From: a virus
Direction: 5' to 3' (one strand)
Length of the DNA stretch: 21,955 nt
Virus record (IMG/VR): IMGVR_UViG_3300048919_000275
Location: 1-21,955 of that record
Part shown: piece after piece, positions 3,905-21,682 of the stretch
Layout of the letters: the number at the start of each line of letters is the position of its first letter
Position numbering within the stretch: position 1 is the first letter of the stretch
Notes under the pieces: generated by a model
What the model was told of the DNA's origin: nothing
The model's input: only the letters and a program-made list of their open reading frames with translations
Databases searched by the model: none
Translations under genes and position numbers: made by a program

Positions 3905-3933
3905 TTCAAATTACCGTGCAATATCATTACAAT
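3905..3933 (+). promoter_or_regulatory. Sigma70-like promoter for the acyltransferase moron
   Basis: TTCAAA (3905-3910) and TACAAT (3928-3933) are separated by 17 bp and lie 36 bp upstream of the ATG at 3970. This is the best promoter-like match in the 130-bp gap, as expected for a moron expressed from the prophage independently of late phage control. Prediction only. Confidence 0.5.
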
Positions 3934-3969
3934 GCGATTAAATTCATTCACTCCATAACTAGGATAATA

Positions 3970-5088
3970 ATGCTGCAAAATTCTTCTCTTACAGAAAATA
4001 AGCCTAACCTGGATTATATTCAGGCCTTAAGGGCACTGGCTGCACTGATGGTAGTCCTCCATCATGCTAAAGCCTTTCTGGTTGGAACTGTTTATGAAAA
4101 ACTTTCGTTTGATCTCTTTTGGCCAGGAGCCTTCGGTGTAGATCTTTTTTTCATAATCAGCGGATTTATTATAGTTTACACATCCTACGACTATACAAGA
4201 AAAGACTTACCAACCTTTATAAAAAAGAGATTCATCAGAATTTGGCCTTTGTATTTCATTGCAACAATGATTTATGCCTTACTATTCAAAAACACAGATC
4301 TGTCAACAATGCATGGCTTTGTTTATTCCGATAAAATTGATGCAGTACAATCACTCAATATTATTAAAAGCCTTTTATTTATCCCTCTTAATTTTTATGA
4401 TCCTGTGTACTTTGGCGCTGCCACATTATTCGTCGGATGGACCTTAAATTACGAAGTTTATTTCTATATAGTCTGCGCAACAGGGTTGCTATTTTCCAGG
4501 AATAAATACTGGTTTTATACTCTTTGGTTTTTAACAACGCTATTTATAATCCCCTCGTTTATGGGGTTAGCCACGACTATAAGACCTACTATAGAGAATG
4601 GTGGGTATTTCAACCTCACAATACAAAGCGTTGTATGGGAGTTTGTTTTTGGTGCATGCGTTGCTATTTTATTCAAAAAAAATATGCTTAGGATAAAAGA
4701 TCCCAAAAAAGCAATACCGTTAATACTCATTGCATTCGCAATCCCTGCATATGGCTATGTTACAAAAAGGAACACAATGCATGGGGTAGAATATTTCGGA
4801 ATGTATTATTGCATAATGTTTTTCCTTCTTACATCATGCCATCAATTTATAAAGGACAATATAAAAATACCCAAAACAATACTTTCCATAGGAGATGCGT
4901 CTTATTCTTTATATCTCTTACACCCTATAGTTTTCATTGTCTTGTTCAAATTAAAAGAACGATTACTACCAACATTAGATTACCAGAACTTTTATTTCAT
5001 GTTCATTTCAGTAATAGTATCAATTTTAGTGTCAATCCTTTCTTATAATTATCTTGAAAAAAAGCTAATTAACATATATAAAAAATAA
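3970..5088 (+). CDS. Acyltransferase-3 family membrane protein (O-antigen/LPS acetylase moron)
   Basis: A 372-residue integral membrane protein of the acyltransferase 3 family. The N-terminal signature LDYIQALRALAALMVVLHH contains the family R-x(9)-H pattern (R21, H31). About ten hydrophobic segments follow, with FGVDLFFIISGFII and YSLYLLHPIVFIVLFK as typical helices. The start at 3970 is preceded by AGGA; an earlier in-frame ATG at 3916 has no such signal. Family members add acetyl or other acyl groups to surface polysaccharides. Phage-borne ones often cause seroconversion and block superinfection by phages that use the same receptor. The gene is strongly AT-rich and opposite to the flanking late genes, between G and FI, a known P2 moron site. 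The substrate cannot be told from sequence. Confidence 0.85.
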   Translation: MLQNSSLTENKPNLDYIQALRALAALMVVLHHAKAFLVGTVYEKLSFDLFWPGAFGVDLFFIISGFIIVYTSYDYTRKDLPTFIKKRFIRIWPLYFIATMIYALLFKNTDLSTMHGFVYSDKIDAVQSLNIIKSLLFIPLNFYDPVYFGAATLFVGWTLNYEVYFYIVCATGLLFSRNKYWFYTLWFLTTLFIIPSFMGLATTIRPTIENGGYFNLTIQSVVWEFVFGACVAILFKKNMLRIKDPKKAIPLILIAFAIPAYGYVTKRNTMHGVEYFGMYYCIMFFLLTSCHQFIKDNIKIPKTILSIGDASYSLYLLHPIVFIVLFKLKERLLPTLDYQNFYFMFISVIVSILVSILSYNYLEKKLINIYKK

Positions 5089-9866: not shown

Positions 9867-9884
9867 TGTGCGAACTCCCACACA
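9867..9884 (-). promoter_or_regulatory. Ogr-binding box between O and P (PO)
   Basis: A second TGT-N12-ACA site (TGT 9867-9869, ACA 9882-9884), also TGTG...CACA at its ends. Placed 55 bp upstream of a minus-strand start it predicts transcription from about 9820, leaving a 38-base leader before O. On the plus strand the start would fall on the P start codon, so I assign it to O. No second box for P was found. Confidence 0.72.
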
Positions 9885-9930
9885 ATGCGAAGCCGGGGAA
9901 AGTGCTGATTTGAGGCCGTATGTTTGTGCC

Positions 9931-11694
9931 ATGACAACACTGACCCCCGCAGACCTCGATCCCCGTCGTCAGGCAATGCTGATGTACTTTCAGGGATACC
10001 GCGTAGCCCGCATTGCTGAAATGCTGGGCGAGAAAGTTGCAACCGTTCACAGCTGGAAAAAACGCGATAAGTGGGGCGAATATGGCCCACTGGATCAGAT
10101 GCAGCTCACCACCGCCGCACGTTACTGCCAGCTCGTCATGAAGGAGCAGAAGGAAGGAAAGGATTTTAAAGAAATTGACCTGCTGGCGCGTCAGTCCGAA
10201 CGACAGGCCAGAATCGGCAAATTTAACAATGGCGGGAATGAAGCAGACCTGAATCCGAACGTGGCGAACCGCAATAAAGGTCCGCGCAAGCCGCCGGAAA
10301 AAAACCTGTTTACCGACGAACAGATCGAAAAGCTGGAAGAGATTTTCCGCGCTGGTATGTTCGAGTACCAGCGCCACTGGTGGGACGCTGGTATCAAGCA
10401 CCGTATCCGCAACCTCTTAAAATCACGCCAGATCGGTGCAACCTACTATTTCGCCCGTGAAGCGTTGATAGACGCCCTGACCACGGGCCGAAATCAAATC
10501 TTTCTGTCAGCGAGTAAAGCCCAGGCACACGTTTTTAAACAGTACATCATCGACTTCGCAAAAGAGGTGGATGTTGAGCTGAAAGGCGATCCGATGGTGC
10601 TGCCTAACGGCGCGTGTCTTTACTTCCTCGGTACAAATGCCCGTACCGCGCAGAGCTATCACGGCAATCTGTATCTTGATGAGTATTTCTGGATACCGAA
10701 ATTCCAGGAGCTGCGCAAGGTGGCCTCCGGTATGGCGCTGCACAAAAAATGGCGTCAGACCTATTTCTCTACCCCTTCCAGCCTGACGCACAGCGCCTAC
10801 CCGTTCTGGTCTGGCGCCCTGTTCAATAAAGGGCGCCCGAAAGCCGACAGGGTGGAATTTGACCTTTCTCACAGTAGCCTGGCGCACGGCGTTTTATGCC
10901 CTGACGGCCAGTACCGCCAGATAGTCACCATTGAAGATGCCGTAAACGGCGGGTGTAACCTTTTCGACCTGGACCAGCTGCGCCTGGAGTACAGCCCGGA
11001 CGAATACAACAACCTGCTGATGTGTCAGTTTGTTGACGATCTGGCGTCCGTGTTCCCGCTGGCGTTGCTGCAGTCCTGCATGGTTGACAGCTGGGACGTG
11101 TGGGACGATTTCGAACCGCTTTTACTGCGTCCGTTTGCATACCACCCTGTCTGGATTGGCTATGACCCGGCAAAAGGAACGCAGAACGGTGACAGCGCCG
11201 GTTGCGTGGTCATTGCGCCTCCCGTCGTCCCCGGCGGTAAATTCCGCATCCTTGAGCGTCACCAGTGGCGCGGGATGGACTTTCGCGCCCAGGCCTCAGC
11301 GATTGAGGAAATCACCAGACGCTACAACGTGACCTACATCGGCATTGACTCGACCGGCGTTGGCGATGGCGTTTACAAAACGGTTAAGCAGTTCTTCCCT
11401 GCTGCGCGTGAGTTTGTCTACAACCCGACCGTTAAAAATGCCCTGGTGCTTAAAGCCTACGACATCATCAGCGGGCGCCGTCTGGAGTTTGATGCGGGGA
11501 TGCTGGATATCGCGCAGTCCTTTATGTCCATTCGACGTTCAACCACTGCCAGCGGCAACCGGCCAACCTACGAAGCAGCCCGCACAGAGGAAGCCAGCCA
11601 CGCGGATTTAGCCTGGGCAACCATGCACGCACTTTATAACGAACCACTGGCAGGAGCTTCCGCCAGTACCAGTAACATCGTGGAGATTTTTTAA
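9931..11694 (+). CDS. P: Terminase large subunit P
   Basis: A 587-residue P2 gpP-family terminase (P2: 590). It has an N-terminal HTH (residues about 10-48: RRQAMLMYFQGYRVARIAEM), an ATPase domain with the variant Walker A SRQIGAT (165-171) and Walker B LYLDEYFW (247-254), and an RNase H-like nuclease domain with IGYDPAKGTQNGDSAG and IGIDSTGVGDGVY. It would cut cos and package DNA with gpM, which is deleted. I chose the ATG at 9931 because it matches the P2 start (MTTLTPADLDPRRQAML); an upstream in-frame ATG at 9868 would sit inside the Ogr box. The stop overlaps the Q start (TAATG). Confidence 0.93.
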   Translation: MTTLTPADLDPRRQAMLMYFQGYRVARIAEMLGEKVATVHSWKKRDKWGEYGPLDQMQLTTAARYCQLVMKEQKEGKDFKEIDLLARQSERQARIGKFNNGGNEADLNPNVANRNKGPRKPPEKNLFTDEQIEKLEEIFRAGMFEYQRHWWDAGIKHRIRNLLKSRQIGATYYFAREALIDALTTGRNQIFLSASKAQAHVFKQYIIDFAKEVDVELKGDPMVLPNGACLYFLGTNARTAQSYHGNLYLDEYFWIPKFQELRKVASGMALHKKWRQTYFSTPSSLTHSAYPFWSGALFNKGRPKADRVEFDLSHSSLAHGVLCPDGQYRQIVTIEDAVNGGCNLFDLDQLRLEYSPDEYNNLLMCQFVDDLASVFPLALLQSCMVDSWDVWDDFEPLLLRPFAYHPVWIGYDPAKGTQNGDSAGCVVIAPPVVPGGKFRILERHQWRGMDFRAQASAIEEITRRYNVTYIGIDSTGVGDGVYKTVKQFFPAAREFVYNPTVKNALVLKAYDIISGRRLEFDAGMLDIAQSFMSIRRSTTASGNRPTYEAARTEEASHADLAWATMHALYNEPLAGASASTSNIVEIF

Positions 11695-12743
11695 TGGCTA
11701 ACCGCAAAAACCGCAGCAAGGCACCGCGCGTCCAGACCGCCACCGATACGGCCAACATAGGCAGTAATGCCCATGCGGAGGCGTTTACGTTTGGCGATCC
11801 GATCCCCGTGATGGACCGCCGGGAGTTATTTGATTACCTGGAGTGCGCGCAGGTAGACCGCTGGTACGAACCACCGATCAGCATGGATGGCCTGGCGCGA
11901 ACTTACCGCGCTGCCGTGCATCACTCCAGCGCTATTCAGGTAAAACGCAATATTCTTACCAGTACCTTCATCCCTCACCGCTGGCTGTCTAAACAGGCTT
12001 TTTCCCGGTTCGCCCAGGACTTTCTGGTATTCGGTAATGCCTACCTTGAAAAACGCATGAACCGGTTAGGGCAGATCATGGAACTGCGCGCCTCGCTTGC
12101 CAAATACACACGTCGTGGCATTGACCCGGACACCTACTGGTTTGCACAGTATGGCTACAACTCACAGCCCTATCAGTTCGATGAGGGAAGCGTTTTTCAT
12201 CTGATGGAACCCGACGTTAACCAGGAGCTTTACGGGATGCCGGAATACCTCTCCGCCATTCCTTCCGCCCTGCTGAATGAATCGGCCACGTTGTTTCGCC
12301 GTAAATATTACCTTAACGGTAGCCATGCTGGTTTCATCATGTACATGAGCGACCCTGCCGCCGATCAGAAAGACGTGGATAATATACGTGAAGCTCTCAA
12401 AAAATCGAAAGGGCCTGGCAACTTCCGCAACCTGTTTATGTACAGCCCGAACGGCAAGAAAGACGGTATTCAGATCATCCCGTTGTCAGAAGTCGCAGCG
12501 AAAGATGAATTTCTGAACATCAAGAATGTGAGCCGTGATGACATGTTAGCAGCTCACCGCGTACCGCCCCAACTGATGGGGATTATGCCTAATAACGTTG
12601 GCGGTTTTGGCGATGTAGAAAAGGCGAGCCGTGTATTTGTCCGTAATGAATTGATTCCACTCCAAAAAAGAATAATGGAAGTAAATGAATGGTTTAAAGA
12701 AGAAATTATTCAGTTTGATGAGTATAGACTTAGTGAAGGCTGA
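11694..12743 (+). CDS. Q: Portal protein Q
   Basis: A 349-residue P2 gpQ-family portal (P2: 344), the head vertex through which DNA enters. Family motifs include RRELFDYLECAQVDRWYEPP near the start and the strongly conserved AHRVPPQLMGIMPNNVGGFG near the end. The gene is coupled to P by a TAATG overlap. The last 80 or so bases are clearly more AT-rich than the rest (ending EEIIQFDEYRLSEG), so the 3' end has been exchanged along with the adjacent accessory block. It still encodes a full-length protein. Confidence 0.92.
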   Translation: MANRKNRSKAPRVQTATDTANIGSNAHAEAFTFGDPIPVMDRRELFDYLECAQVDRWYEPPISMDGLARTYRAAVHHSSAIQVKRNILTSTFIPHRWLSKQAFSRFAQDFLVFGNAYLEKRMNRLGQIMELRASLAKYTRRGIDPDTYWFAQYGYNSQPYQFDEGSVFHLMEPDVNQELYGMPEYLSAIPSALLNESATLFRRKYYLNGSHAGFIMYMSDPAADQKDVDNIREALKKSKGPGNFRNLFMYSPNGKKDGIQIIPLSEVAAKDEFLNIKNVSRDDMLAAHRVPPQLMGIMPNNVGGFGDVEKASRVFVRNELIPLQKRIMEVNEWFKEEIIQFDEYRLSEG

Positions 12744-12756
12744 ATAAAGAAATGAA

Positions 12757-12780
12757 AACTGGCTGTAAAAACAGCCAGTT
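12757..12780 (-). terminator. Terminator between Q and the accessory operon
   Basis: A perfect 10-bp stem (12757-12766 with 12771-12780) with an AAAA/TTTT loop. On the minus strand it touches the stop of the downstream gene and is followed by TTCATTTCTTT, so it is best read as the end of the three-gene operon; it may also slow transcription from Q. Confidence 0.68.
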
Positions 12781-13643
12781 CATACACCTGCGCCAATAAA
12801 GTCTCCATAGGACTCATCTTCAAGACTAATGTATTCCACCCTCCACTGATCCATCCTTCGCAAGGCATAAAGTGAAAAATGAGTATCAGCAACTGCTACA
12901 CAATTAGTTAATTCGATGAGTTCCGAATGTCCCTGTTTCGGGTCGCCATAGAATTTAAAAAATAGCTTTTTCAAAGCAAGACAGGTATTTTCTGCAGCAG
13001 TTCTTGCATCTGGACCACCCTCTGTCGCATCGTACACCACATTGATGACCAGCTCGTAAGGCTCACCTTCCTCGAGATCGGTGAATCTCTCCTCACCTAA
13101 ATCAAAAAATATACCAATCAAATGCTCTGAGTTTGTTGAAATTATGTCAGCAACTGCTTTTTCAAAAACGAATTTATCATCTTCGTCATTTTTTTCCAGG
13201 TCGAAGGCGCGCAAACGCTCTTCGAAGGAATCAGGGAACGCGGGACGACCGTACTTAGCAGCTAGCCACTGCTTAAGTCCTTGTTTCTCTTCTGATGAAA
13301 TAGTATATGCAGGATCATTTTCCGTACAATGGAAATTCTTTTTAGAGATTATTGCTTTCCTTTCATGTCGAAGTTCAACTGCCCCTTTCTTAGGGCTTTC
13401 AGGATTCTCAAAACAAAGATCAAGGATTCTTGGGTGTTTTGCTCTCTTCATCTTGCTTGACCCCTTTTTCAAGGGGCCAAACATGAGTTCAACGTTCTTT
13501 TCAGAATCACTTTGTAAATCACAATCATGTGTAATCACAACAACTTTATGGTTAGTTTCATCAGGGCTCAGAAGTCCAAGTGAAACGGCATCATCATGTT
13601 TAAGAACATGCCCCTGACGCCATGATGTTCCTCGTACCAACAT
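12780..13643 (-). CDS. Unknown accessory protein with a THDCDL motif (operon gene 3)
   Basis: A 287-residue soluble protein that I do not recognise. Near the N-terminus a hydrophobic strand runs into a striking polar motif, KVVVITHDCDLQSD (residues 33-46), with H39, D40, C41 and D42 as possible metal or catalytic residues. A KLKK-type basic patch follows (PLKKGSSKMKRAKHPR, about 57-72), then a charged middle. The C-terminal half looks like an alpha/beta domain. There are no membrane segments. It is the last gene of a three-gene operon, 9 bp after the HTH gene, with its stop in the terminator. More AT-rich than the phage backbone. Being in the P2 Q-to-A accessory site it is a defence candidate, by inference only. 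Confidence 0.72.
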   Translation of the reverse strand: MLVRGTSWRQGHVLKHDDAVSLGLLSPDETNHKVVVITHDCDLQSDSEKNVELMFGPLKKGSSKMKRAKHPRILDLCFENPESPKKGAVELRHERKAIISKKNFHCTENDPAYTISSEEKQGLKQWLAAKYGRPAFPDSFEERLRAFDLEKNDEDDKFVFEKAVADIISTNSEHLIGIFFDLGEERFTDLEEGEPYELVINVVYDATEGGPDARTAAENTCLALKKLFFKFYGDPKQGHSELIELTNCVAVADTHFSLYALRRMDQWRVEYISLEDESYGDFIGAGV

Positions 13644-13652
13644 AAATGTGAT

Positions 13653-14324
13653 TTAATCCTCTACAGAGCCAGGAATCGAAACAGATGATTTCCAACCATC
13701 TGTAGGCTTCGCCTTACTTGCTGCAAAATTGGCAGCCTCTGCAGCCGCATTCATCGCTTTAGATTCATCAATCAGTATCTGGACAGGCTTATGCCAATCT
13801 TCTCCTTCTTTGACCAAGTCCATTAACGACCGGCCATTGAAAGCTTTCATTTTGGCTAACATTTTTGCATCAGCGATTCCTGCCTCAGAAAAGGCATCAG
13901 CAATGTTACTCAGATTTCTGATAACAAGCGTTTTGACGTCATCTTCAGGCTGATATTCTCCAGAAAGCCACTTATAGAGAGCTTGTCGTGTTATCCCCAA
14001 ATCCTTTGCCAATTCAGACATTGAAGGGGAAAGGATCTCTCGTATATTAGCCAAATGCTGGGCAACGCTTCTTACATCAACATCAGGGGCAGAAGCAGAA
14101 AAAATCAATGTATCACTTGAGTCAAAAGCAAACTGAACCCTTGGCTGTACATAATGACGCCAATGCTTATACCCATCAACTGGATAAGAGGCACCAGTAC
14201 CAACAAGCAATAATGATGCAGCGACCACGATACCCGGCATTTTCGAATTCTTTTGCGTACAACTCAGCGGAGGAGTCGCAAAACGCTCGATTCGTCCAGT
14301 ACCGCCAGTAGGAGTTGCTAACAT
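13653..14324 (-). CDS. Membrane-anchored helix-turn-helix protein (operon gene 2)
   Basis: A 223-residue protein. A single hydrophobic segment (PGIVVAASLLLVGTGA, about residues 30-45) follows a polar N-terminus, so it is probably a bitopic membrane protein or has an uncleaved signal anchor. Residues about 101-128 read SMSELAKDLGITRQALYKWL, a clear XRE-like HTH. A helical C-terminus (EAANFAASKAK) completes it. An HTH attached to a membrane segment is an unusual arrangement and could couple a membrane or envelope event to DNA binding. The start is 18 bp after the TIGR04255-like gene, with a strong GGAGG 7 bp upstream. The exact family is unknown to me. Confidence 0.72.
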   Translation of the reverse strand: MLATPTGGTGRIERFATPPLSCTQKNSKMPGIVVAASLLLVGTGASYPVDGYKHWRHYVQPRVQFAFDSSDTLIFSASAPDVDVRSVAQHLANIREILSPSMSELAKDLGITRQALYKWLSGEYQPEDDVKTLVIRNLSNIADAFSEAGIADAKMLAKMKAFNGRSLMDLVKEGEDWHKPVQILIDESKAMNAAAEAANFAASKAKPTDGWKSSVSIPGSVED

Positions 14325-14342
14325 ATTAATTCCTCCGATGTA

Positions 14343-15152
14343 TCATTTCCATTTTGCCCAAGCAAAATCTGAAACCATACCTTTAAACGCTTCTTTAACT
14401 TTACTATGCAAGGAGAGTATCTGTTCTTCAACCATTTGCAAGTCAAATGGCATATTACCTTCTACATAGTGATCAGTATCAATGACCGCATGACGACGCT
14501 GTTCCGTATCTCTAAACCTTGGTAGTGCAACCAAACCATTAGGCACCATGTCCGGAGGAAAACCAAGTTGAGTGTTCGTTTTGTAAATACGCGAAACCAT
14601 GAAGCCATTTTGGATCACTGGTCCCACGGAAGTTTGATATACGGCCTCCTGTAAGGATTGAATAGGAGTTAATCCAAGGTCAACCCCATGCAATTCATTT
14701 ACGAGGTATTGTTCTATAACCTCTTCACCTTCAGGAAATACAGCGTCAAGATATCTTAGCCCAATACGGCTCACCAAGGACGGCCTTGCAAATTCAAGAA
14801 CTTTACTAAGTCCCAGCATCAGTGCAGAAACAAATGGTTCATGCGTATTATAGTCCGTTGTATGAAAGGTAATAAAGTCGTTACCTATGACGAACCCAGA
14901 AGTTCTTTCAGCGTTAAAGATTATCCACTGCGTGACGGGCTCAAATGAATGAACCGGCGGTTCGTTCGGATTAACGATCTCGAACTTTAGTTGGGTAGTA
15001 CTTTGAGTCTCATAAAAAGGGTAGCCCTCAACTCGCAATGCTTCCTGTATGTCAGGAATGTACATGGCCATTTTTGCCACAGGCGTGAACTTAACCTGTA
15101 CCAATGCGTAATAAACGGGCGCATTGGACATGCGTTCAGTGTTAGCACTCAT
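14343..15152 (-). CDS. TIGR04255-like protein (operon gene 1)
   Basis: A 269-residue protein resembling the sporadically distributed TIGR04255 family, of unknown function. Signs are the opening NAPVYYALVQVKFTP (residues 10-24), the central LVSRIGLRYLDAVFP (about 130-144), and the overall length (family about 250-270). No membrane segment or catalytic motif is evident. The start has a strong AAGGAGG Shine-Dalgarno 5 bp upstream. As first gene of the operon it is probably expressed from a promoter in 15153-15260. Members of this family are known to me as scattered accessory genes; a defence role here rests on location. Confidence 0.72.
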   Translation of the reverse strand: MSANTERMSNAPVYYALVQVKFTPVAKMAMYIPDIQEALRVEGYPFYETQSTTQLKFEIVNPNEPPVHSFEPVTQWIIFNAERTSGFVIGNDFITFHTTDYNTHEPFVSALMLGLSKVLEFARPSLVSRIGLRYLDAVFPEGEEVIEQYLVNELHGVDLGLTPIQSLQEAVYQTSVGPVIQNGFMVSRIYKTNTQLGFPPDMVPNGLVALPRFRDTEQRRHAVIDTDHYVEGNMPFDLQMVEEQILSLHSKVKEAFKGMVSDFAWAKWK

Positions 15153-15310
15153 GTCGCCCTCCTTGATAATGTTTCATTAAATATCTCTTGTTTCATGACG
15201 CCTAGTTTACACATAGATTGACACTTTCTCCATCGATAAGTTCAAGATTAAATCGATAGTACGGGTCTATGGATTCGGAAAAGAACGATACCGCTTTCCA
15301 AGAACGCGCG

Positions 15311-15730: not shown

Positions 15731-16261
15731 ATGGCTAATACTAACTGCATTACTGTACTTACTGCTCGTGGCATTACTGAGATTCTTAGCACAGGAGGAA
15801 GTCAAGCATGGAGACTTGACGCCAGCCATGCTGCTAAATACGAATATTTAGTTTGTGTACAAAATTCGAAAAAAGACTGGGGATCACAAGAAGCAAAACA
15901 TCACCATGCATTCATGGTGGGTCGTATCTCGGGAATCAGCAGGGCTCCCGAAAATCCTCACCGCTGGATCATAAATATCAGTTCTTATGCTGAAATTGAC
16001 ATCCCAGAGCAATGGGATGGTAACCGAAACCCCGTTTCTTATCGCAACCTCAAAGATATTGGCATCGAGACGGATAAACTGGAATTCAAAGCTGTTCCAA
16101 AATTCGCTCCAGCGAATTTGAATGTCGAACAAGCGGGTGATGAGTACGAAGATGAAGAAGAAAATGTTGTTAAGCCGTTAACACTTAAAGAGGCAAAAGC
16201 TGGGCTAGCCTTATATTTTGGAGTCAATGAAGAAAACATCCAAATCACCATACAAGGATAA
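15731..16261 (+). CDS. Unknown accessory protein, 176 residues
   Basis: I do not recognise this protein. It is soluble, with tryptophans and histidines in the first half (QAWRLDASHAAKYEYLVCVQ; SQEAKHHHAFMVGRISGI) and a highly acidic linker at about 139-149 (EYEDEEENVV). A short C-terminal part follows (LTLKEAKAGLALYFGVNEEN), which looks like a small helical domain. It stands alone on the plus strand between cos and the truncated dam gene, where P2 carries tin and old, with its own good promoter. That position argues for a lysogenic-conversion or phage-exclusion role; the sequence itself gives no function. The start at 15731 is preceded by a weak GGGA. Confidence 0.7.
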   Translation: MANTNCITVLTARGITEILSTGGSQAWRLDASHAAKYEYLVCVQNSKKDWGSQEAKHHHAFMVGRISGISRAPENPHRWIINISSYAEIDIPEQWDGNRNPVSYRNLKDIGIETDKLEFKAVPKFAPANLNVEQAGDEYEDEEENVVKPLTLKEAKAGLALYFGVNEENIQITIQG

Positions 16262-16340: not shown

Positions 16341-16425
16341 CTAACCGGGAAGATCCATCGACCGGCCATTTTCATGAGCACGAATCTTCGCCATCAACTC
16401 GTCCGTTAACTCAGAAACCCACTGG
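16341..16425 (-). pseudogene. Short unidentified C-terminal gene fragment joined to dam'
   Basis: Right after the truncated dam frame, another minus-strand phase reads QWVSELTDELMAKIRAHENG and on to DLPG and a TAG at 16341-16343. It looks like the end of some other phage early gene brought in by the deletion, but I cannot name it. Confidence 0.4.
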
Positions 16426-16557
16426 ATAGTCTGTCGCCATCATCACAGCACAGGAACCTGCGAAAGGTTCAACCAGTCGTGGGCCAGTAGGAAGGTGCTT
16501 AATCAGTTCCGGCATAATAGCGGTTTTATTTCCCGCCCATTTCAGGATGGTGCTCAT
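16411..16557 (-). pseudogene. dam': DNA adenine methylase, N-terminal fragment
   Basis: A 48-codon frame starts MSTILKWAGNKTAIMPELIK and contains LVEPFAGSCAVMM. This is the N-terminus of phage Dam-type adenine methylases: motif X (KWAGNK) and the FxG motif I (residues about 34-37) that binds S-adenosylmethionine. It stops at codon 49 after TDYPVGF. The target-recognition domain and the DPPY catalytic motif are absent, so it cannot methylate. The start overlaps the TraR gene stop (ATGA), as in intact relatives such as Fels-2-like phages where dam precedes A. Confidence 0.87.
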
Positions 16558-19124: not shown

Positions 19125-20156
19125 ATGACGATCAGAAAGCAGCCGAACGGAAAATGGTTGTGCGAGTGTTACCCGAACGGGCGTGACGGCAAGCGTGTAC
19201 GCAAGCAATTTGCGACAAAGGGCGAGGCTGTAGCATTCGAAAACTTCACCATGGATGAAGTGAACAAAAAGCCGTGGCTGGGTGAAAAGGAAGATCGGCG
19301 GCGTTTGTCAGAATTGATTGAGCAGTGGCACTCTCTTTACGGCCAGACGCTCGCAGACCCCAAGCGCCTAATGGCGAAACTGAATATTATCTGCAATGGC
19401 CTGGGCGATCCCGTCGCCTCTGAGTTAACCGCCGGTGACTTTACAAAGTATCGCGAAGCACGATTAAAAGGTGAAGTACGTAACGAAGACGGCGCGCTAA
19501 TGTCGCCAGTAAAGCCCCGCACGGTAAACCTAGAACAGCGTAACTTATCATCCGTTTTTGGCACCTTGAAAAAGCTGGGCCACTGGTCTGCGCCTAACCC
19601 GCTCGCCGGGCTTCCAACATTCAAAATCGCTGAGGGGGAACTGGCGTTCCTTGCCCAAGACGAAATTAAACGCCTACTTGATGCCTGCGCTGATTCTCAA
19701 AGCCCCAGCCTGTTAATGATCGCAAAGGTATGCCTTGCCACCGGCGCGCGGTGGAGTGAAGCCGAAAACCTGCAGGGCCATCAGTTATCTAAATACCGGA
19801 TCACCTATACCAAAACCAAAGGTAAGAAAAACCGAACCGTACCGATATCACAGGATCTGTATGACGAACTCCCCAAAAACAGAGGGAAGCTATTCACCCC
19901 ATGCAGAAAAGCTTTTGAGCGCGCAGTAAAAAGAGCGGGTATCGACTTGCCTGAAGGCCAGTGCACACATGTGCTGCGTCATACATTCGCCAGCCACTTT
20001 ATGATGAATGGTGGGAACATATTGGTTTTGCGAGATATATTAGGTCATGCAGATATTAAGATGACTATGATTTATTCTCACTTTTCTCCAGACCACTTGG
20101 AAGATGCAGTAACTAAGAACCCACTATTCAACTTGAAATGGGAAAATTCGAGATGA
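19125..20156 (+). CDS. int: Tyrosine recombinase integrase
   Basis: A 343-residue P2/186-type integrase. The N-terminal arm-binding domain starts MTIRKQPNGKWLCECYPNGR; a core-binding region covers about 55-165; the catalytic domain has R209 (ATGARW), H282 and R285 (HVLRHTF), H308 (LGHAD) and Y317 as nucleophile, with a lysine of the KGKK beta-hairpin (232-235). All residues required for strand exchange are present. Together with cox, the 38-bp cores and arm repeats it could excise the element. It targets ssrA. It overlaps the following nuclease-like gene by 4 bp. Confidence 0.95.
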   Translation: MTIRKQPNGKWLCECYPNGRDGKRVRKQFATKGEAVAFENFTMDEVNKKPWLGEKEDRRRLSELIEQWHSLYGQTLADPKRLMAKLNIICNGLGDPVASELTAGDFTKYREARLKGEVRNEDGALMSPVKPRTVNLEQRNLSSVFGTLKKLGHWSAPNPLAGLPTFKIAEGELAFLAQDEIKRLLDACADSQSPSLLMIAKVCLATGARWSEAENLQGHQLSKYRITYTKTKGKKNRTVPISQDLYDELPKNRGKLFTPCRKAFERAVKRAGIDLPEGQCTHVLRHTFASHFMMNGGNILVLRDILGHADIKMTMIYSHFSPDHLEDAVTKNPLFNLKWENSR

Positions 20157-21682
20157 AACAATTAAATTCCGTTTCCGATGCAGTTATTCAACTACGTCTA
20201 AATGCCGTAAAGTCAAGCATACAACAAGTAAATCCTGATACGTTCATTCATCACTGCCTCAATTATAATCATCAGAATTTTAAAGACCAAATTGAAATGC
20301 TGCGACATCTACCTTGGGTAGTGAATTTATGTATAAAATGGTCTGCCATTGCAATTGAAAAAAAACGCCAATTCAAGCCAATTGATGGCCCGGGAACTGT
20401 AAGATTATTACAAAGGGCATATGAACAATTAAGCATAATACCAACAGGATTAGAGCGCAATGATAATGGCATTGATTTCTTTCTTCGAAACACGTTGTAT
20501 CAGCAGGGGATTTACCAAAGACTGGATGGTTTAAACACCGTTAGTCGGCAGGCTTTTCTTTTCTCCTCATTAGAGGAGAATAATAGAATCAAACGTCGAT
20601 TTAAAGAGTTAACCAATGTGGATATAAATGATTTTTTAAAGTTATCATTTGTTCTTATATCCATGGTTACAACTCAAGCGCCAGTACGAAAAATAGGCGC
20701 AAATACTTTCTCAATTCTCTTTCCATTAATTTCAAAAGAAATTATAGAGAACTTCCTCAGCACAATATCTTGTCCTTATGAAAACCTATCTACTTTTTGC
20801 CGAAATAGAAGTGACGACACGCCGCTAGTCGAATATTTTTCCCCTTCCCCATTCTTAGAAAAACCATTCATAAGCTCCAAAAATGAATATTATCAGATAC
20901 ACACTCAACTAACATCCACTAGTCTGCAAACTTTCATTTATGATCTACTTAGGAGAGATGACGCTGAATCATTCATGGATAACTTCGGTAGTATTTTTGA
21001 AAATGCAGTGAATCAACTTTTAGAAGAAAGTGGTATTAGCTATATCGCAGAAGATGAACTAAAAAAACTCCTTCCTCAGGAAAACAAAGTTGTTGACTTC
21101 CTCATAAAACATACGGACGCAAATATTTTCATTGATGCAAAAGGGGTAGAGATACATCAAAAAGGAATGGTTACACTGCGACCAGGAGACATATCAGGTA
21201 AAATAAAGAGCTCGGTATTAAAAACTATAGAACAAGCCCACTCTGTAAATCGGGAATTAATAAAAGAAGAAAGCCGAGACATACCATTTAAAAAAGAATC
21301 TTACATTTTATGTCTTACTTATAAAAATTTATTCCTTGGAAATGGTACCTTCCTTAACAAATCATTTGCAAATTTTGAGATGAGAAAAATTCGTGACAGG
21401 CATAGCGAAGAATACCAAATACCCGATGAACATATTTTCTGTATATCCTTTGAAGAATTCGAGTATCTATTGTCATCTTGTAAGGTATACAATAAACCCG
21501 TACATGAGGTTCTTCGGGAAGCTGTAGATAGAAACAAATCACCGTCAAGTGCTGTATTTCTTTTCGCGCACCATATACGTGACACGTTCCCTAAAACACG
21601 TTCATCTGAAATCGTGAAGCAGGCTGGCCTAAACCAACTTAATCAGCTAATCGAAACCTTAAAGCAAACTATTCCCTCTTAG
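20153..21682 (+). CDS. Putative PD-(D/E)xK nuclease-like protein, possible defence gene
   Basis: A 509-residue protein in the int-attR interval. The C-terminal half has the spacing of a PD-(D/E)xK nuclease fold: FGSIFENAV with E283, then KVVDFLI with D315, then NIFIDAKGVEI with D328 and K330. The N-terminal half is helical with no motif I recognise, perhaps a sensor or binding domain. I chose ATG 20153, which overlaps the int stop (ATGA); an in-frame ATG at 20138 lies inside int. The gene is AT-rich, unlike the phage backbone, which indicates late acquisition. It is coupled to int and thus to the lysogenic transcript, as expected of a gene protecting the lysogen. The nuclease assignment is from motif reading; the defence role is an inference. 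Confidence 0.75.
   Translation: MKQLNSVSDAVIQLRLNAVKSSIQQVNPDTFIHHCLNYNHQNFKDQIEMLRHLPWVVNLCIKWSAIAIEKKRQFKPIDGPGTVRLLQRAYEQLSIIPTGLERNDNGIDFFLRNTLYQQGIYQRLDGLNTVSRQAFLFSSLEENNRIKRRFKELTNVDINDFLKLSFVLISMVTTQAPVRKIGANTFSILFPLISKEIIENFLSTISCPYENLSTFCRNRSDDTPLVEYFSPSPFLEKPFISSKNEYYQIHTQLTSTSLQTFIYDLLRRDDAESFMDNFGSIFENAVNQLLEESGISYIAEDELKKLLPQENKVVDFLIKHTDANIFIDAKGVEIHQKGMVTLRPGDISGKIKSSVLKTIEQAHSVNRELIKEESRDIPFKKESYILCLTYKNLFLGNGTFLNKSFANFEMRKIRDRHSEEYQIPDEHIFCISFEEFEYLLSSCKVYNKPVHEVLREAVDRNKSPSSAVFLFAHHIRDTFPKTRSSEIVKQAGLNQLNQLIETLKQTIPS

Follow-up and report, generated by a model that had tools for sequence, protein, structure and literature searches.

A mobile three-gene module in the P2 prophage defence hotspot combines a TIGR04255-family protein, an Xre-type HTH protein and a predicted MazF-like fold

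Which function is served by three adjoining genes at the Q-A site of a P2-like prophage, a region described as a defence hotspot in two studies (PMC9122126; PMC9519451)? The question is raised by IMG/VR virus record IMGVR_UViG_3300048919_000275, a P2-like prophage fragment of 21,955 bp which was studied over its whole length (the window) and which carries scaffold, Cox, phage repressor and integrase genes. The three genes (G1, G2, and G3; the trio) lie between the portal gene Q (11694-12743), whose identity was confirmed, and the conserved cos-side sequence GGCGTGGCGGGG; the terminase gene is located at 9868-11694. A first-pass annotation, made from the sequence alone, had described a three-gene minus-strand operon between Q and cos and proposed a defence role in view of the Q-A site. 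The hotspot is indeed published, but gene A itself is gone from this prophage: the replication gene is absent, and of dam only a fragment comprising its first 45 codons is left, fused directly to the final part of a short, conserved ORF (16350-16557). Because gene A is missing, the prophage is probably replication-defective, with the trio intact. Between G1 and the dam remnant, a 176-aa gene (15731-16261, plus strand) matches phrog_37247, a family of unknown function, over its full length (5e-85). Two further plus-strand genes were noted elsewhere in the window, i.e. an O-acetyltransferase/O-antigen acetylase-like gene in the tail region (3916-5088; phrog_3333), a probable lysogenic-conversion gene, and a gene adjoining the integrase (20138-21682) whose 514-aa product matches phrog_14259 (unknown function).

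All three ORFs of the trio are intact on the minus strand, as first annotated, and are separated by gaps of 18 and 9 bp. G1 (14343-15152, 269 aa) belongs to the TIGR04255 family (NCBIfam, E = 3e-52) and is a putative sensor or adaptor. G2 (13653-14324, 223 aa) is an Xre-type HTH protein (HTH_3, E = 7e-5) and a putative autoregulator/antitoxin. G3 (12780-13643, 287 aa) is an orphan whose AlphaFold model marks it as a putative toxin/effector. Ribosome-binding sites (AAGGAGGGCGAC-ATG and CGGAGGAATTAAT-ATG) were read from the sequence, and a strong intrinsic terminator just past the G3 stop codon (12756-12781, minus strand) consists of a hairpin with 11 pairs (folding z = -3.55). The ribosome-binding sites, short gaps, and own terminator noted in the first pass were thereby borne out, as was the higher AT content: GC amounts to 42.7% in the trio, compared with 50.5% in the portal gene, 55.0% in the terminase gene, and 48.7% in the whole window. 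On the strand of the operon, nothing resembling a sigma-70 promoter was detected.

With G3 as the only query, we collected 80 loci from genomes and 41 from viruses. G1, G2, and G3 were present in this order in 115 of these 121 loci, and three of the six exceptions were cut by a contig end; the prospect that the genes do not co-occur elsewhere, considered in the first-pass annotation, did not come true. The trio was found in P2-like prophages, on plasmids, and in chromosomes of at least six phyla, its hosts including Pseudomonadota, Deinococcota, Cyanobacteriota, Verrucomicrobiota, Bacteroidota (Emticicia), Actinomycetota, and others, several of them metagenome bins. E. coli prophages carried it at the same site with a protein identity of 72-86% to the trio of the window, and a near-identical version of this E. 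coli trio (at least 99%) was present in 18 of 5,426 complete genomes. Plasmid-borne copies were detected in Robbsia, Meiothermus, Klebsiella, two Pseudomonas, Vibrio, and Gloeocapsa, always in the order G1-G2-G3, which was also that of an Acinetobacter phage contig. Among 395 Enterobacterales species, seven were positive for TIGR04255, and all seven had the trio, with some very divergent members. Compared with the E. coli copy, dN/dS was ~0.05 for G3 and ~0.10 for G2, with dS near saturation. The trio is a true conserved unit and mobile, with strong purifying selection on G2 and G3.

The first gene, annotated initially as TIGR04255-like, proved to be a full-length family member (177.9 bits at a curated NCBIfam cut-off of 30, covering model positions 1-252 of 252). 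Its AlphaFold model (pLDDT 95) displays a two-lobed alpha/beta fold. No confident fold match was obtained for this model, AdoMetDC, Rep initiator, and PII being weak matches with TM ~0.25 to the query; a PDB sequence search with the G1 profile returned chance matches only, and a test for likeness between the two halves of G1 found none. TIGR04255 genes occurred in 30 of 399 sampled Pseudomonadota genomes, often with other partner genes. The family is broader than the trio, whereas G3 is nearly always found within it. A search of the open-access literature for TIGR04255 by name gave no result.

A second three-gene module was observed in the same P2 hotspot of three other loci (L193:7515-9469, L182:7546-9434, and L205:2792-4619). 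It begins with a divergent TIGR04255 protein, followed by two partners unrelated to those of the trio; relatives of these partners adjoin TIGR04255 genes in other Pseudomonadota, and the middle gene in L193 matches the C-terminus of the PADLOC candidate PDC-M32A (E = 2e-7). In an Acinetobacter genome (L225:1453-3246), the gene after TIGR04255 encodes a 201-aa protein whose SNTCDI motif resembles the HDCD motif of G3, which hints at a reduced version of the trio.

For G2, the HTH (residues ~89-130; 13935-14060, minus strand) contains the invariant residues R113 and W119. HTH_3 was detected in 49 of 79 G2 relatives and an Xre-like antitoxin HTH in five. A weak, colinear profile match linked G2 to Xre/MbcA/ParS antitoxins (P = 0.002); for the C-terminal part alone the match was marginal (P = 0.01; the best of 40 shuffles reached 0.012), and the toxin-binding domain PF09722 was absent among the 25 Pfam families listed for the 79 relatives. 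Further HTH matches of G2 were to phage repressor and CII-like families, and its only PADLOC matches were weak, unrelated ones to the HTH parts of RmrA and mad1 (E above 0.002). The protein had been described in the first pass as membrane-anchored. Upstream of the HTH, a hydrophobic segment (residues ~29-45) followed by a conserved GTG motif is encoded at 14190-14240 (minus strand). By a simple threshold, 48 of 75 relatives have a hydrophobic N-terminal stretch (C-terminal part: one of 75), and a GTG/STG-like motif was kept in 62 of 75. Since the motif persists where the hydrophobic stretch is lost (e.g. in L017, L018, and L037), the functional element may be the motif, with an optional membrane tether. 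The description thus holds for the HTH but for the tether only in part; membrane anchoring is plausible, not secure.

For G3, invariance was read from an alignment of 73 sequences. Invariant residues were Q10, G11, C41, D42, R72, W126, Y131, and R133; C41 and D42 belong to the HDCD motif (residues 39-42, within THDCDL; 13518-13529, minus strand), and W126, Y131, and R133 to the WLAAKYGRPAFP motif (residues 126-137; 13233-13268, minus strand). Homology searches gave no match in Pfam, NCBIfam, or PADLOC and nothing useful in PHROGs, and a PDB sequence search with the G3 profile returned chance matches only. A match to a known housekeeping family, raised in the first pass as an outcome that would speak against a defence system, was thus not seen. 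The AlphaFold model (pLDDT 89) consists of an N-terminal MazF/PemK-like SH3 barrel and a C-terminal alpha/beta part. In a Foldseek comparison with the PDB, most of the top 30 matches were MazF/PemK/CptIN toxins (probability up to 0.99, E-value 0.007, TM 0.5-0.6 over the toxin), and PemK-like proteins were also among the matches to viral models. At the sequence level, PF02452 (PemK_toxin) matched none of 79 G3 relatives, a profile comparison with 15 PemK proteins gave no match (P = 0.28-0.36), and the catalytic Arg before strand 2 of MazF had no conserved counterpart in G3 as judged by eye. From its predicted structure, we consider G3 a putative MazF-fold toxin/effector.

The region upstream of the operon harbours an operator-like direct repeat, AGTGTCAATCTATGTGTAAACT, with a period of 12 bp (15204-15225, minus strand; ~52-73 bp before G1). 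Alignment of upstream regions revealed an invariant block, TGTMAA-N6-TGTMAA, which in most cases lies 20-80 bp before G1. Because its half-sites form a direct repeat, a palindromic operator was rejected. Allowing one mismatch, an 8-mer repeat of period 12 was found in 56 of 79 dereplicated loci, compared with 3.6 +/- 2.0 in dinucleotide shuffles. Other periods were seen in one to seven loci each, except period 19 (32 loci), which is explained by doubled 12-7-12 arrays. In 63 of the 79 upstream regions, TGTNAA pairs were spaced by exactly 12 bp. The pattern TGT[AC]AA-N6-TGT[AC]AA was present at 116 sites before G1, spread over 97 of 126 loci, and at none elsewhere in 1.43 Mb of loci. Among eight complete trios found independently of motif discovery, five had a 12-bp repeat, with altered half-sites (e.g. 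TGTGTAAT, GTGTATA, and TGTGCAAA); before TIGR04255 genes without the trio, one was found in none of 16 cases. Furthermore, in several loci whose half-site is of the GTAAT type, the recognition helix belongs to the TRKTL type rather than SRQAIY, a pairing that would be expected if G2 reads the site. Conservation of the repeat only before G1 and its absence at TIGR04255 genes outside trios imply that G2 controls its own operon, probably through this element. While the conserved unit and the hotspot were recognized in the first-pass annotation, this operator and the predicted MazF-like fold of G3, both of which shape the proposed mechanism, had been missed.

The genomic surroundings point to defence in part. 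In prophages with related portals collected here, the same site is occupied by homologues of retrons, PARIS AriA, AbiLi, PtuA, and methyltransferases. Outside P2, immediate neighbours of the trio include homologues of type I RM, ThsB, SoFic, PD-Lambda-4, MzaE, and AIPR; these neighbourhoods are mixed, with integrases, TniQ, and metabolic/housekeeping genes as well, and defence genes are a minority in them.

With middling confidence, we interpret the trio as a mobile, autoregulated three-component module resembling toxin-antitoxin systems, most likely an anti-phage system acting by abortive infection, in which both toxicity and defence are our inference. G2 would bind the tandem 12-bp direct repeats, whose conservation before G1 is observed, and thereby keep the operon low. 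G2, perhaps together with G1, would also hold G3 inactive, as suggested by the gene order, the resemblance of G2 to HTH antitoxins, and the near-obligate co-occurrence. Release of G3 would follow a phage signal, which might be sensed by G1 or, via the N-terminus of G2, at the membrane. G3, with its predicted MazF/PemK-like N-terminal barrel, might then attack RNA or another core target and stop the infection. If true, an undescribed toxin-antitoxin-like immune module spanning at least six phyla would be added, the orphan TIGR04255 family would gain its first likely role, and the G3 family would represent MazF-fold effectors whose conserved residues are unfamiliar. Owing to its conserved operator, the system is detectable by a DNA signature alone. 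More speculatively, the trio might stand for a new and widespread class of three-component bacterial immunity. Its parts would be a TIGR04255 sensor, an HTH switch, in many cases inserted in the membrane, that recognizes 12-bp direct repeats in head-to-tail fashion, and a MazF-fold effector that contains cysteine and has a new chemistry; TIGR04255 would then be shared as sensor by several other multi-gene modules, including the second one at the same P2 site.

Several other explanations account for parts of these observations. A pure addiction module, which would maintain prophages, plasmids, and islands in their hosts by post-segregational killing instead of acting on phages, would suit the location of the trio on plasmids and prophages and beside integrases and TniQ, as well as the implied autoregulation by an HTH protein and the predicted MazF-like fold of G3. 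We nevertheless regard it as rather unlikely, since three components exceed the needs of simple addiction, some chromosomal copies adjoin defence genes, and the P2 site is mostly occupied by defence genes (this analysis; PMC9122126). Rousset et al. (PMC9122126) report that about one in four P2 hotspots contains putative partition genes, and an HTH protein whose operon is preceded by tandem direct repeats, together with a possible membrane segment, could likewise belong to a locus for partition or stability (StbA or single-protein Par kind), in which G2 on its repeats ties the element to membrane or nucleoid and G1 and G3 are accessory. Such a locus is improbable here: half-sites number only two to four and lie just before the first gene, the trio contains no NTPase, the partner with the predicted MazF fold is constantly present, and copies also reside on integrated chromosomal islands. 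Slightly less probable still is a non-killing regulatory module of prophage or host, e.g. a superinfection or transcription regulator; the resemblance of G2 to phage repressor and CII-like families and the conserved operator would fit, but the trio is spread far past any single phage type, and in the loci examined the operator precedes only G1.

Identity with 3HP (Rousset et al. 2022) is the explanation to which we assign the least weight, as a very remote prospect. As described in PMC9122126, 3HP comprises three genes without clear Pfam domains, located at the same prophage site and active against P1, so hotspot and gene number agree with the trio. A study that used PADLOC-DB v2.0.0 reports 3HP and cites Rousset (PMC10855318), from which we take 3HP to be included in that release; neither G1 nor G3 was matched by it, and G2 only by the weak, unrelated HTH matches described above. 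On this ground, 3HP was rejected, and the trio is very probably a different system.

The reading of the trio as an abortive-infection module can be set against systems already described. No catalogued system in PADLOC-DB v2.0.0 matched it, in keeping with the first-pass remark that the combination was unlike any recognized one, and the DefensePredictor text (PMC13092281) does not name a MazF/PemK or TIGR04255 system; the arrangement may be contained in Table S5B of Rousset et al. or in a later tool. PD-Lambda-2 (PMC9519451), an example of the tripartite toxin-antitoxin defence systems, is likewise built of three components, one of them an Xre HTH protein, and occurs in an E. coli mobile-element context, but it consists of HigB, a HigA-peptidase, and a P4-type antitoxin, and unlike the trio lacks TIGR04255 and a MazF-fold part. 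Within the TIGR04255 family (NCBIfam sporadTIGR04255), G1 is a full-length member of a group that is wider than the trio and often has other partners. MazF/PemK RNase toxins (CcdB/MazF fold), the top structural matches of G3, share with its predicted structure an SH3-like barrel with a helix after strand 2. They measure ~110 aa, whereas G3 has 287 aa with its additional C-terminal alpha/beta part, other invariant residues (Q10, G11, C41, D42, R72, W126, and R133), and no sequence similarity to them; also, the trio has no adjacent MazE. Finally, antitoxins of the Xre/MbcA/ParS and HigA/HI1420 types resemble G2 in having a short helical C-terminal part behind an Xre-type HTH, in being encoded beside a toxin-fold gene, and in the implied autoregulation. 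G2 differs from them by its N-terminal hydrophobic/GTG extension, and its C-terminal likeness is marginal; the trio as a whole is set apart by the order sensor-HTH-toxin and by direct repeats in place of palindromes.
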